Below are positions 55,859 through 60,923 of a stretch of DNA of 64,000 nucleotides, piece after piece. Source of the stretch: Gammaproteobacteria bacterium (GTDB taxonomy: Bacteria > Pseudomonadota > Gammaproteobacteria > Steroidobacterales > Steroidobacteraceae); the NCBI GenBank assembly GCA_025358295.1, contig JANYJY010000029.1:1-64000 (forward strand). The letters are read 5' to 3'. Position 1 is the first letter of the stretch. Each line of letters opens with the position of its first letter. The notes under the pieces are model-generated. The model was not told the origin of the DNA and searched no databases. It saw only the letters and a list, made by a program, of their open reading frames with translations. Made by a program: the position numbers and the translations under genes.

Positions 55859-58117
55859 GTGCTGGAACTAAAATCTGAAGCCATCGAGCGTCCGACCGTA
55901 GATGCCTCGTTTGATCCCTACGGTCGTTTGCTTCGCATGCTCATGCCCAGCTTACGTGCAGTGGTCGTGCACGACGGATTCTCCAACTTAGTATGGTCCT
56001 CTGACGAGTTGGATCTCGTCGAGGATCCGGACATCATCAAAGACGCCATCGCAAATGCGCTGGCGGATTCCGCCGAATTTGCGGGTGTCGTGCGCACTCT
56101 CGACGCGGACCACGCGGTGTACTCCTTCGCCATCCGCGGCGAACACATTGAACTGCTCGGCGTGGTCAGCCTGATCACCCGTCTAACCGGCAAGCAGACC
56201 GAAGCACGGCCGCTGCGGACCGTGCGTCAATTGGTGCAGCCCGCCTTGGAGTGTCTGCGGCGCGAACTGACTCTGCGTTCCAAGTTGGGCTCACGCGAGC
56301 GCGATCTGGACGTGCGCGAGCGCGATCTCGATCTCATGTTGGAGATTTCTTCGCACCAGTCCGCCGCCGCAAGCGATACCGACGAATTCGGACTCATCAT
56401 GAAGACCGGGCTGGAGCGAATGGGATGCGCGCTGGCCGCGTTATGGGTACCCGATAAGAACATCGCCATGTCCTTGACGCGCAGCGGCCAGCCGATGTCA
56501 GCGGAGTCTTTGCAGCGCGCGCAACATCATCTGATGGCGTGGATGCAGCTGCAGCAGCGCACCATCGTGGTCAATCACATTTCCAAGGTGGCGAGCGACA
56601 TCGCGGCGCCCTACAAGATCTTGGCCTGCCCGGTGCGGCACCCCTCGGAGCGCGTCATGGGCGTGCTGGCGATGTTCAATCCCCCGAGCGCGCCGGACTT
56701 CGACCTGCATCAGACGCGCATCGCCGAGGTGCTGGCGAAGCGGGCGACGAGCATAATTCAGGCGCAGTACGATTCCAGCACAGGCTTAATGACCCGGCAG
56801 GCGTTCGAGCGCCAGGCAGCGGCACTGTTCGGGTCAACGACGTCCACGGATTCGCACGTCATTCTCTACCTCGACATCGACCGCCTGCATGTCATCAACG
56901 AAACCTTCGGCATGCATGTGGGCGATGACGTAATCGTCAATGTCGCCGAATGTATGGCAAAATCTCTGCCCGCTGGTGCACTGTCGGCTCGTATATCGGG
57001 CGACCGGCTGGCCGCGCTGATCCCGAACTGCAGCATGGATGCAGCCGCGATCATCGCTGAGAGAATTCGCGCCGCCGCCGCCGCTATTGCGCCTCGTGCC
57101 GGCCAGGGTTCATTTGAGGTTTCCGTCTGTATCGGGGTCGCACCCATCGGCCGCTCCGACAATCCACTCGCGCATGCGCTGGCGACGGCTGAGATTGCCT
57201 GCAAAGCGGCCAAGGATCGCGGCAGGAATCGCGTCGAAATGTTTCAGGATTCGGATCAAAGCATTATTCGGCGTCACACCGACATCTTGGTCATCGGCAA
57301 ACTGCGCGATGCGTTGGGAACCGACAGTTTCCGTCTGGATGCTCAACCCATTCTGCCGCTGCGCGGCAACTACGGCCGTCCACGTTTTGAATTGCTGATC
57401 CGCATGTTGGGTGATCGCGGTGAAATCATCCCGCCGGGAAAATTCCTCTCCGCAGCGGAGCGATACCAGCTCATGCCCACGATTGACCGCTGGGTCGTGC
57501 ACCGCGCTTGTGAGCTGCTGGGCGAACACAGCGCGTCGGTCGGCGAGGACATCGCCCGATTCGCCATCAATCTCTCCGGGCAGTCCCTGCAGGACGAGTC
57601 CTTTTTGCAGTACGTCATCGATGAGATCCGAAACAGCGGTCTCTCGCCCGGTGTCCTGTGCTTTGAATTGACCGAAACCGCGACCATCGGCAACTTGGCC
57701 AAGGCGCAACAGTTCATGCGCAAATTGCAGGATCTCGGCTGTCAGTTCGCGCTCGACGATTTCGGCACGGGCGTCAGTTCGTTGGCTTACCTCAAGGATC
57801 TTTCAGTCAACTATCTGAAGATCGACGGCACCTTCGTCCGCGACGCAATCATCAACGCGCGTTCGGAATCAATGATCAAGGCAATTGCGCAACTGGCGAA
57901 GGTCATGTGCATGGAGACGATCGCGGAATACGTGGAGACCGACCTGCTCCGTGCCAGAATGGCAGACCTGGGCGTCGACTACGGCCAGGGCTTTGCGATG
58001 GGCAAGGCGCAGCCGCTTGAGGAGCTGCTGAAAGTCCTGGAAATTTACGAAGCCACCGTCAGTGACTGGGCCGACGCACCGCAATCGATACCGGAAGAAA
58101 TACCGAGCCGCCACTAG
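55859..58117 (+). CDS. GAF-GGDEF-EAL protein, degenerate GGDEF
   Basis: The 752-residue soluble product has an N-terminal region of unknown fold, a GAF-like domain (about residues 165-300), a GGDEF domain (about 300-465) and an EAL domain (about 480-735). The GGDEF active-site motif reads SGDRL, so cyclase activity is unlikely. In the EAL domain the first motif is ELLIR instead of EALLR, but the catalytic Glu, the INLS Asn, ELTE, DDFGTG, YLKIDG and the late Glu and Gln are all present, so c-di-GMP phosphodiesterase activity is possible. The start is a GTG. It is 99 bases upstream of csrA on the same strand. Confidence 0.88.
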   Translation: MLELKSEAIERPTVDASFDPYGRLLRMLMPSLRAVVVHDGFSNLVWSSDELDLVEDPDIIKDAIANALADSAEFAGVVRTLDADHAVYSFAIRGEHIELLGVVSLITRLTGKQTEARPLRTVRQLVQPALECLRRELTLRSKLGSRERDLDVRERDLDLMLEISSHQSAAASDTDEFGLIMKTGLERMGCALAALWVPDKNIAMSLTRSGQPMSAESLQRAQHHLMAWMQLQQRTIVVNHISKVASDIAAPYKILACPVRHPSERVMGVLAMFNPPSAPDFDLHQTRIAEVLAKRATSIIQAQYDSSTGLMTRQAFERQAAALFGSTTSTDSHVILYLDIDRLHVINETFGMHVGDDVIVNVAECMAKSLPAGALSARISGDRLAALIPNCSMDAAAIIAERIRAAAAAIAPRAGQGSFEVSVCIGVAPIGRSDNPLAHALATAEIACKAAKDRGRNRVEMFQDSDQSIIRRHTDILVIGKLRDALGTDSFRLDAQPILPLRGNYGRPRFELLIRMLGDRGEIIPPGKFLSAAERYQLMPTIDRWVVHRACELLGEHSASVGEDIARFAINLSGQSLQDESFLQYVIDEIRNSGLSPGVLCFELTETATIGNLAKAQQFMRKLQDLGCQFALDDFGTGVSSLAYLKDLSVNYLKIDGTFVRDAIINARSESMIKAIAQLAKVMCMETIAEYVETDLLRARMADLGVDYGQGFAMGKAQPLEELLKVLEIYEATVSDWADAPQSIPEEIPSRH

Positions 58118-58557: not shown

Positions 58558-59061
58558 ATGACTACTTCAACGCACGCCCCAGAACTGCTTGTTCAGACTT
58601 GGTTCAACACCGATCGGCCGCTCCTGCTATCCGGTCTGCGTGGACGGGTGGTGGTGCTGGCTGCATTCCAGGTGCTCTGCCCCGTCTCAGTGAGCGGCGC
58701 GGCGCCGCAGGCGCAAAGAATTTTTGAGACTTTCGAGCCGGATGACGTGGCTGTGATTGGTTTGCACGCCACGTTCGAGCATCATGATGCCTTCAACGCG
58801 GCGATGCTCAGGGCCTTCATCAAGGAATATCGACTGAAATTTCCAATCGCACTCGATCAGCCGAATGCGGCGAGTCCGATTCCGCACACCATGGAGCGCT
58901 ACAAAATGCGCGGCACTCCCACGCTTGTTTTAATCGATAGGCAGGGATTCGTGCGCAAACATGCTTTTGGATTGGTTGACGATCTGCGCATCGGAGCCGA
59001 GATCGGCGCGCTGACGCAGGAGTCCGATGCCGCGTCGTTGACTCGAAGTTCGGCGGCCTAG
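58558..59061 (+). CDS. Redoxin-family protein with a single active-site Cys
   Basis: The 167-residue product has the TlpA/peroxiredoxin-like fold: GRVVVLAAFQVLCPVSVSG, then DDVAVIGLHATFEHHDAF and MRGTPTLVLIDRQGFVRKHAFG. Relatives known to me have a CPGC pair at the first block, whereas here only the first Cys remains (CPVS), so disulfide exchange within the motif is not possible. It is cytoplasmic, since no signal is present. Its stop codon overlaps the stop of the convergent gene in a shared CTAG. Translation start is discussed under the leader hairpin. Confidence 0.78.
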   Translation: MTTSTHAPELLVQTWFNTDRPLLLSGLRGRVVVLAAFQVLCPVSVSGAAPQAQRIFETFEPDDVAVIGLHATFEHHDAFNAAMLRAFIKEYRLKFPIALDQPNAASPIPHTMERYKMRGTPTLVLIDRQGFVRKHAFGLVDDLRIGAEIGALTQESDAASLTRSSAA

Positions 59062-60923
59062 CTGCCGAGAACGAAGCGGATGCGAATGCGGGTGCGCTGG
59101 GCCTTCGCCTGGCCGCCGCGTATGACCGGCTTGAAACGCCATTGTGAGAGGGCCGCGATAGCCGCGTCTTCGAACACACCGGGCGTGCTGGTGGCACGAA
59201 CCGCAATGTCCTGCACCTCACCGCTTTCGCCAACCGTGAATTCCAACTCCACCCAACCTTGGGACTTGTTCAGTTCCGCCTTTTTCGGGTAGATGGGCTG
59301 CACGGATTTGACCAGGGTGAGATCGCCGGCGGCGACGATGCTCGACTGAAACTGATGCTTGGCAACCGCGGCGTCCAGATCGCGGTGGACCGCTTCAGAT
59401 TCGGCCGACGTAAACCCGACGGCCGACGCCTCCTCGAGCCAGCTTCGCGCCGCATCGAATTGCTCGAGAACAAGCGCGCGCCGCGCCTTGGCAACCAGGC
59501 GGGTGCCCAGGTCTTGCATGGCGGCGGGCAGGCCGGAGTTGCCGGGATCCAGGCCGCGCAAGGTCAGCAAATAATACTTGGCGCAGTCGTCGGCCGGTTC
59601 GATCAGCCGATCCTCCTGCAAGCGCTCGGTGCCGCTCTTCAGCAGCTGATTCCAGCCATCCGCTTGCGCCTGCCGGCGTGCCGTCGCGAGCAGGCTTCGC
59701 GCTGCCTGGAGATTGCCCGGCGCCGCGATCCCATCGGCGGCATCGAGCCAAGCGGACGCGTGCGCGAAATCACGGCGATCTACGGCGTTGCGGGCTTCGG
59801 TCAGAACATGCATGGCCCAGGACCTTTTAGTGTCCTGCACGGCTGGGCTGTTCGGATCGAGCCGCAGCGCCTGTTGTAGATAAAAGAGCGCGTTGTCGCT
59901 TGGCGGGTCGATGAGGTGTGCGCTATTCATGCGCCGCATGGTCAGTTCGAGCAAGGGCGTCACTCTGTCGTCTTCTGATTTGGCGTCGTTGCGTACGTGT
60001 GCCGCTGCCTGCGCCGATTTCACGCGCTCGCGCGATTTCGCCAACTGTGCCGTCAGAAATGCGATACGGCCGCTTTCAACCCCGGATTTTCGCGCGGTCT
60101 CGATGGCGGCCCCTGCCTCGTCGAGGCGTTCTTCGAGCAATGCGTTCTCGGCTCTGGCCAGCAAGCGCTCGTGGACTTCCGCCAGCCCGGCGCGGCCCAG
60201 CACGTCCGCAGGGCTTTGTGCCACCGCCTGCAGATACAGTTCGAGCGCATTATCGCCCGCGGGTTCGGTCAGCCGGTTGGCGGCGAGGGCGACGGCGGCG
60301 CGTGTGAGCAGCGTGGATTCGCCGGTGGAGGCCCGGGCTGCCTCAGGTACGGAGTTTTCTTCCGATCGCCTGTGCAAGGCCCACATCGAGACCAGCACGA
60401 TGCCCAAAACGCCGACGGTGCAGCCGATCAGCGCTGGACGATTTGAACTGGAGCGCCGCCTGGCCAATGGCGTCGCCGCGCTGCGCCTGCGTTGCTCTTC
60501 ATATTTCTTGACCGCCGCCTCCGCGAACAATCTTGCCCGGCCCGGCGACATTGGCTTGTGAATGAAGCGATAGACAATGCCCGCGCTGATGAGCCCGGCA
60601 AGGGAGATCTCCGTCTCACGGTTTCCGGCCACGACGACCACAAGATCGGGAAACTGCCGTTTGATTTGTCCGATGAAGACGCTCGACGTCTCATTGAGCG
60701 CCAGAACATCCAGGACCAAAATGCCAACTTCCCCCGCCACCAGGAGGTCGCTGACCTTGTCGGGGGAGGGAACATGCCACAGCCGCCTGGCACTGCCGAC
60801 CGCGTCTCTCAAGGTCTGCAGAAATGCCTCGTCGCTGGTAAGCACTACGAGCTCGACGATATCGCTGGCGAGGCTGAACCGTAGTGCGTCCAGCGAGGCG
60901 CCGTCTTCGCCGGAAGCTAGCAC
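59058..60923 (-). CDS. Receiver-like domain, one membrane helix, TPR-like repeats and TonB C-terminal domain
   Basis: The 621-residue product has an unusual order of parts. Residues 24-125 look like a response-regulator receiver, with D31/E32, D72 in LVLDV and K123 in HKP. Residues 164-183 form a single membrane helix. Residues 205-470 contain three related helical repeats, each with a L-x-E/D-P-x-x-D-N/D-A/C-x-x-Y signature (around 218-231, 337-350 and 440-453). Residues 534-621 are a TonB C-terminal domain (VQPIYPKKAEL, GWVELEFTVGESG, WRFKPVI). The topology would put the receiver in the cytoplasm and TonB in the periplasm. No ExbBD neighbours are present. The start is a GTG. Confidence 0.82.
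   Translation of the reverse strand: MLASGEDGASLDALRFSLASDIVELVVLTSDEAFLQTLRDAVGSARRLWHVPSPDKVSDLLVAGEVGILVLDVLALNETSSVFIGQIKRQFPDLVVVVAGNRETEISLAGLISAGIVYRFIHKPMSPGRARLFAEAAVKKYEEQRRRSAATPLARRRSSSNRPALIGCTVGVLGIVLVSMWALHRRSEENSVPEAARASTGESTLLTRAAVALAANRLTEPAGDNALELYLQAVAQSPADVLGRAGLAEVHERLLARAENALLEERLDEAGAAIETARKSGVESGRIAFLTAQLAKSRERVKSAQAAAHVRNDAKSEDDRVTPLLELTMRRMNSAHLIDPPSDNALFYLQQALRLDPNSPAVQDTKRSWAMHVLTEARNAVDRRDFAHASAWLDAADGIAAPGNLQAARSLLATARRQAQADGWNQLLKSGTERLQEDRLIEPADDCAKYYLLTLRGLDPGNSGLPAAMQDLGTRLVAKARRALVLEQFDAARSWLEEASAVGFTSAESEAVHRDLDAAVAKHQFQSSIVAAGDLTLVKSVQPIYPKKAELNKSQGWVELEFTVGESGEVQDIAVRATSTPGVFEDAAIAALSQWRFKPVIRGGQAKAQRTRIRIRFVLGS

Follow-up and report, generated by a model that had tools for sequence, protein, structure and literature searches.

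A TonB-like protein with a cytoplasmic pseudo-receiver domain in the Steroidobacteraceae and its relatives

TonB proteins are in general described as having no cytoplasmic domain (PMC8262864), and so the regulation of a TonB-type arm from inside the cell has been little explored. In GltG of Myxococcus xanthus an FHA domain, a transmembrane helix and a TonB_C domain follow one another, and this protein was named the best candidate to interact with the motor protein AglR (PMC3169522). Pseudo-receivers, which have the receiver fold without key phosphotransfer residues, are known from other systems: in PleD a phosphorylated receiver acts via the adjacent pseudo-receiver, the FrzS pseudo-receiver works through a partner protein, and the switching of such domains has been called a mystery (PMC12632262). 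Here we describe a gene found in a stretch of 64,000 nucleotides (the window) from a gammaproteobacterium of the family Steroidobacteraceae (GenBank assembly GCA_025358295.1, contig JANYJY010000029.1, positions 1 to 64,000). Its product joins a pseudo-receiver, a single transmembrane helix, three TPR-like repeats and a TonB C-terminal domain.

GltG is the closest works-like case, since in both proteins a single chain runs from a signalling domain in the cytoplasm through one membrane helix to a TonB domain at the C-terminus. However, GltG has an FHA domain and a 'proline-rich TonB-like motif', whereas the window protein has the pseudo-receiver and TPR-like repeats, and no Pfam match to FHA was obtained for it. 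No ExbB-like gene that could represent an AglRQS-type motor partner was found among the neighbouring genes. With PleD and FrzS the window protein shares the receiver fold lacking key phosphotransfer residues, and the arrangement of PleD recurs in the split relatives described below, but the output of those proteins is a cyclase or polar localisation, while here it would be an envelope-spanning TonB-like arm. The classical TonB proteins of E. coli and Pseudomonas are alike in the fold and sequence of the C-terminal domain; they differ from the window protein in its receiver-like domain, its TPR-like instead of Pro-rich spacer, and its lack of both a mid-membrane His and ExbB/ExbD neighbours. 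Receiver-less TPR-TonB homologues of 341-375 amino acids occur in Rhodanobacter, Luteibacter and Dokdonella (L091, L102, L113, L116, L120); their transmembrane segment, TPR-like region and TonB_C domain align to the family profile, but the N-terminal receiver is absent. A search that mostly did not extend to subscription journals found no publication in which TonB is joined to a receiver or pseudo-receiver, and the literature on TonB with CheX, CheA-like kinase or gspAB yielded no description of the pseudo-receiver-TPR-TonB architecture. The words TonB, TPR and transmembrane do not occur in the main text of the pseudo-receiver review (PMC12632262).

The pseudo-receiver and the layout of the protein

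The gene occupies positions 59058-60923 on the minus strand, where an open reading frame (ORF) with a GTG start encodes a product of 621 amino acids; the ORF, its translation and full-length homologues together confirm that the gene is real. In the AlphaFold model, built from 31 sequences (mean predicted local distance difference test score, pLDDT, 88.7), a (beta-alpha)5 domain at residues 24-150 is followed by a transmembrane helix, helical repeats at residues 204-527 and a TonB domain from residue 529. Together with the Pfam TonB_C match given below, the model bears out the initial annotation, made from the DNA letters alone, which had placed a receiver-like domain, a single membrane helix, three repeats and a TonB domain in one chain.

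The cytoplasmic domain (residues 22-150, positions 60474-60860, minus strand) is predicted to have the receiver fold. In structure comparison with VIA-align the best Z score, 17.9, was obtained with the receiver 2rjn (3.1 A over 133 residues), and 3kcn gave a Z of 17.8 with 2.2 A over 134 residues. A profile of 15 fused domains, searched against the PDB sequences at an E value of 0.01 or better, gave 16 matches, of which 14 were receivers and two IMP dehydrogenases (best match 3hv2, E 5.1e-10). Profile-profile comparison with the intact receivers of relatives gave a probability of 95.6 and an E value of 1.1e-8. Pfam Response_reg did not match the window protein itself; it matched five of the 24 family rows in which the window protein is included, at E 0.0034 at best. 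The model, the structure match and the PDB profile search agree on a (beta-alpha)5 receiver fold for residues 24-150. The possibility that the N-terminus is not a receiver was rejected on the structure match, the profile-profile comparison and the PDB profile search, and the receiver-like N-terminus of the initial annotation stands.

The initial annotation had further held that this domain keeps the acidic pair, the Asp and the Lys of a working receiver. Alignments to intact receivers showed that the last two are indeed kept, D72 (positions 60708-60710) corresponding to the phospho-accepting Asp and K123 (60555-60557) to the conserved Lys. The acidic pair is not: the pair positions within T29-S30-D31 (60831-60839) are taken by T29 and S30, and D31 and E32 come after them. 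Retention of the pair was thus rejected, and the adjoining D31/E32 were evidently taken for it. At the position of the conserved Thr the profile alignments place A99 (60627-60629) and MAFFT places G100, neither of which is Thr or Ser. Since three of the five residues that define phosphotransfer are lost, the cytoplasmic domain is, judged by its sequence, a pseudo-receiver.

The same pattern could be observed in the family. Position 29 is T or S in 23 of the 24 rows and non-acidic in 23, position 30 is acidic in five, and D31 is found in 23; D72 is kept in 23, K123 in 17 and P124 in 23, and Thr stands at position 99 in two. In a separate set of 24 single-receiver rows the corresponding counts were 24 for D72, 22 for K123 and four for Thr at 99. 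A non-acidic DD1 has been reported for about 20% of surveyed pseudo-receivers (PMC12632262), as compared with 23 of 24 rows here. Among the domains of eight close homologues the receiver shows the strongest conservation, with 63-86% identity as against 51-68% for TonB_C, and the identity of repeat 2 falls as low as 19%. Among the receiver elements tested, beta5 (RFIH) and the Lys-Pro loop had the lowest mean entropies (1.17 and 1.31). The receiver domain is no decaying remnant in the lineage of the window.

The single transmembrane helix (about residues 164-186, positions 60366-60434), the core of which contains no His, leads to the periplasmic repeats. Repeat 1 covers residues 204-313 (59985-60314), repeat 2 residues 314-423 (59655-59984) and repeat 3 residues 424-527 (59343-59654), all on the minus strand, and the three align with one another. 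The E/D-P-x-x-D-N signature ascribed to all three by the initial annotation is exact in the first two (EPAGDN at 220-225 and DPPSDN at 339-344), but the third reads EPADDC (442-447). Modelled alone, the repeats were predicted to be helical with a mean pLDDT of 93.6. The top Foldseek match of this model was a TPR protein (E 6.8e-4) at a root-mean-square deviation (rmsd) of 22.6, and VIA gave Z scores up to 9.7 with an rmsd of 15.9; both are loose matches, and among known structures neither program found anything closer than a loose TPR-like arrangement. Pfam TPR_11 scored 21.0 bits in the window protein, under its cut-off of 26.8; TPR models matched some of the 24 family rows, TPR_19 eight of them.

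Within the C-terminal domain (residues 529-619, positions 59067-59339, minus strand) Pfam TonB_C matched residues 542-619 above its cut-off (E 1.5e-17) and was present in all 24 family rows. With Foldseek the predicted domain matched TonB bound to the receptor FoxA (6i97_D) with an E value of 2.0e-5 and an rmsd of 1.4, and 2gsk_B was also matched.

Split and fused relatives

Applied at E 1e-14, the pseudo-receiver profile gave matches in at least 105 of the 246 genomes searched in the window's order and in at least five of the 398 searched in the phylum. The five, among them the window's own genome, belong to one class. These counts are lower bounds, because only some candidates per genome were scored. 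Within the genus, receiver-covering matches occurred in at least 10 of 22 other genomes, and a broken fragment in G018. Uniqueness of the architecture to the window's genome was rejected on the homologues and on these counts, and no paper was found on the design that the initial annotation set apart from ordinary TonB proteins. A class survey with a receiver-plus-repeat profile matched 97 of 369 genomes, mostly in one part of the profile only (generic TPR or receiver proteins), and was not used for prevalence. The proteins form a real, conserved, clade-centred family of signalling-domain TonB-like proteins.

Relatives were taken as the best 80 of 130 matches in a scan of genome contigs, at 77 loci. 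In 11 of these loci the pseudo-receiver makes up the latter half of a tandem receiver protein with a gene of its own (longest ORFs of 327-449 amino acids), and in each of them a TPR-TonB gene follows the tandem receiver gene. A histidine kinase gene, belonging to one BLAST cluster, lies directly upstream in ten, the contig of the eleventh (L075) being cut there. The kinase of one such operon (L084) matched Pfam HATPase_c at 1.6e-31 and HisKA at 1.7e-4. The genes of the split operons either lie less than 20 bases apart or overlap in their longest ORFs. The acidic pair, the Asp and the Lys are present in the first receiver of all 11 tandem proteins, and the Thr was identified in it by eye. Similar split genes exist within the window's own order (L023, L025, L027). 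As far as the gene order and residues of the relatives can tell, this suggests that the pseudo-receiver was once part of a kinase-driven signalling pair. A second protein is encoded downstream of the split operon in L081, L085, L089 and L125; in L089 (11910-13016) its TonB_C domain stands mid-chain, at residues 132-205 of 369.

In a second fused group (family f7: G042, G056, G462, G485) both receivers, the repeats and TonB_C are found in one chain of 947-972 amino acids. The first receiver of all four has HS in place of the acidic pair and A in place of the phospho-accepting Asp, and by their residues both receivers are degenerate. An intermediate, L068, has two fused receivers, the first with Asp and Lys and with N-G in place of the acidic pair. 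In the close relatives of the window protein the first receiver is absent. Thus the fused forms examined lack the standard phosphotransfer residues, and the kinase-linked split operons have one intact receiver.

A domain tree was computed from 64 chosen rows, which excluded L060, L061 and duplicate copies of contigs. The split pseudo-receivers formed one clade (support 92/97), and the window protein fell within a fused clade of 24 rows (100/98). As regards a split or a fused ancestry, the fused rows need two changes on this tree, and several long branches meet in it. Tandem receivers with adjoining histidine kinase-like sequence were found in the four other genomes matched in the phylum (five loci), one of them (G975) with the tandem receiver fused to a Ser/Thr kinase. 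No TonB_C gene was found near the tandem receivers of G066 and G975, the two whose loci were properly readable (not so G165 and G423). At L199 (4624-6507) a Ser/Thr kinase, a receiver and a pseudo-receiver form one chain, encoded right after a histidine kinase gene.

The window's genome contains a paralogue (G000:C45, L033:8249-10303). Its gene row (L033:8249-14751) encodes the pseudo-receiver-TPR-TonB protein, a Ser/Thr kinase with a receiver-like N-terminus, a CheA-like kinase with Hpt and HATPase, and CheX. It is unusual for His/Asp and Ser/Thr signalling to be mixed in this way about a TonB-like protein. The receiver-like N-terminus of this Ser/Thr kinase was recognised by alignment, and its cluster mate in L080 gave a weak Response_reg match (E 0.011). 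In L033, L045, L062 and L080 the gene right after the fused one encodes a Ser/Thr kinase. At the fused-gene loci, L033 included, CheA-like genes were found on seven distinct contigs and CheX genes on six. By eye, the Hpt His is present in five of the six CheA-like proteins aligned and an ExxN motif in all seven CheX proteins, from six distinct contigs. In L041 the cheX and TonB-like ORFs overlap by about 10 bases.

These genes bear on the question whether D72 is still phosphorylated. By way of an unusual metal/acid geometry, for instance with D31, it could receive phosphate from the CheA-like kinase of the paralogue locus and be reset by CheX, and so gate the TonB arm. The near-constant D31 and D72, the frequent K123, the motifs of the CheA-like and CheX proteins in the loci of relatives and paralogue and the ORF overlap in L041 all agree with this, but the acidic-pair positions and the Thr are all replaced in the window protein, the first receiver of the second fused group has no phospho-accepting Asp, and no kinase or phosphatase gene was found in the scanned neighbourhood of the window gene. 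We regard this explanation as unlikely. The initial annotation proposed that a TonB domain directed to the outer membrane is under the control of a cytoplasmic cue. As far as the architecture goes this is supported, and kinase genes do stand beside relatives. The more specific form of the proposal, control by phosphorylation of D72, is weakened, because the window protein has neither of the two metal-binding acids nor the Thr and the first receiver in all four members of the second fused group has lost its phospho-accepting Asp.

Neighbouring genes and energy coupling

The stop codons of the TonB-like gene and of a converging redoxin-like gene (58558-59061) share the CTAG at 59058-59061. Since this gene converges and the next upstream gene points away, the TonB-like gene is a single-gene unit. 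The redoxin-like (AhpC/TSA-like) protein has, by eye, a single Cys where redoxins usually have CxxC. Further along there is a GGDEF-EAL gene (55859-58114). Its relatives lie near the TonB-like gene on 11 distinct contigs, most of which come from close relatives. By eye SGDRL stands in place of the GGDEF motif, so the protein may be a phosphodiesterase or a cyclic di-GMP sensor only.

At L130:7300-9677 (contig C50, 67299-69676) there are BLAST-cluster mates of gspB and gspA, and the same clusters are found near fused genes in other genera. Proteins of the GspB type include ExeB. It could be argued that the TonB-like protein helps to assemble or to position another machine of the envelope, for instance the type II secretion system; the TonB domain would then bind a secretin or a peptidoglycan-associated partner and the pseudo-receiver would place it. 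In the window's genome the gspA and gspB cluster mates lie 6.4 kb from the gene, and they recur in 12 distinct contigs each, although this recurrence is partly plain synteny within one family, and none of the 11 split loci has a member of either gsp cluster. The kinase of L084 scored best against the NCBIfam model T2SS_HK, but its 240.7 bits are under the curated cut-off of 450. ExeB has been described as a secretin partner (PMC4098917). On balance a role of this kind seems improbable.

The initial annotation noted that no ExbB/ExbD genes are nearby and that energy coupling may therefore be absent. The first part was confirmed: tblastn with the ExbB/ExbD sequences of contig C42 as queries gave no match in the window, along its contig as far as base 98000 or within the 20 kb around the paralogue. 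None of 872 neighbouring ORFs at 64 loci (50 distinct contigs) matched such queries. In E. coli TonB the His of the membrane helix serves coupling to ExbB/ExbD. No His was found in the 19-residue core of any of 42 family helices (26 fused, 11 split and five receiver-less); by eye, the helix of the genome's housekeeping TonB does contain one. The second part of the annotation's statement, as a possibility, fits the missing genes and the missing mid-membrane His. A standard tonB-exbB-exbD-exbD operon exists elsewhere in the genome, at C42, and MotA/ExbB was matched six times in the genome.

The protein could accordingly be a conventional energy transducer that uses this housekeeping ExbB/ExbD to energise one or several TonB-dependent receptors, its cytoplasmic end being regulatory. 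The match of its TonB_C domain to TonB in receptor complexes would suit such a role, and so would the genome totals of 50 receptor-barrel but only five TonB_C matches, with one operon of the TonB-ExbB-ExbD-ExbD type. The absence of ExbB/ExbD genes nearby and of the helix-core His makes ordinary ExbB/ExbD coupling less likely, and we consider a conventional transducer quite improbable.

A proposed docking module and envelope-spanning arm

The explanation that we prefer, and to which we give an even chance, is that the pseudo-receiver serves as a module for docking or dimerisation and gates an envelope-spanning TonB-like arm without Asp phosphorylation. The arm would be anchored in the inner membrane and span the envelope, with the pseudo-receiver as its cytoplasmic end. 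This domain would dock or dimerise, perhaps via its conserved beta5-alpha5 side, rather than be switched by phosphorylation, and a cytoplasmic partner that docks on it would set the placement or the oligomeric state of the arm. The TPR-like repeats would reach across the periplasm, perhaps with partners bound to them, and the TonB domain would contact an outer-membrane protein, so that the arm would hold, place or tug its outer-membrane partner. In the split systems the kinase would phosphorylate the first receiver, which would then act on the pseudo-receiver as in PleD and engage the TPR-TonB arm. In the lineage of the window the pseudo-receiver would have become fixed to the arm, the phosphorylated partner being lost or acting in trans. 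In favour of this explanation are the receiver fold and homology, the replaced acidic pair and Thr, the conservation of the domain among close homologues, the low entropies of beta5 and the Lys-Pro loop, the split relatives, the degenerate first receiver of the second fused group and the precedents of PleD and FrzS. The domain order, the predicted folds, the residue losses, the conservation and the kinase and phosphatase genes next to relatives are observations; docking, its partner, contact with the outer membrane, any force and independence from ExbB/ExbD are inferred from them.

Several observations weigh against this explanation. A module that only docks would have no need of D72 and K123, yet both are present, and a few relatives retain the Thr. 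Genes for a CheX-type phosphatase and a CheA-like kinase lie beside some fused relatives, and at these loci no other receiver was recognised among the scanned neighbours. The strong conservation of the receiver holds for close homologues only, because across the wider 24 rows TonB_C varies less (mean entropy 1.60 versus 1.94 for the receiver), and the receiver of the paralogue is even more divergent than that of the window protein. The window gene stands alone, with no partner for its product among the neighbours. The repeats vary among homologues, and one homologue (L061) is without them, which is hard to reconcile with a fixed periplasm-spanning arm unless the L061 contig is misassembled. 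This ortholog from the same genus (L061:10001-10867) has 289 amino acids with the receiver and TonB_C in frame; it is either a real short form unable to span the periplasm or a misassembly.

A broader history can be put forward tentatively, and we think it rather less probable than the docking module itself. A two-component relay, consisting of a histidine kinase and a receiver with a pseudo-receiver, may have been rewired to a physical envelope arm as its output; the pseudo-receiver may then have been fused to the arm, and the phosphorylation chemistry dropped in the fused lineages. The result would be a phosphorylation-free docking switch on a TonB-like, ExbB/ExbD-independent link to the outer membrane.

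The family offers a natural series, in which a kinase, an intact receiver and a pseudo-receiver stand beside a TPR-TonB protein, both receivers are fused to it, or the pseudo-receiver alone is fused. With this series it becomes testable how pseudo-receivers get switched, and so does direct action of a two-component system on a link between the inner and the outer membrane.

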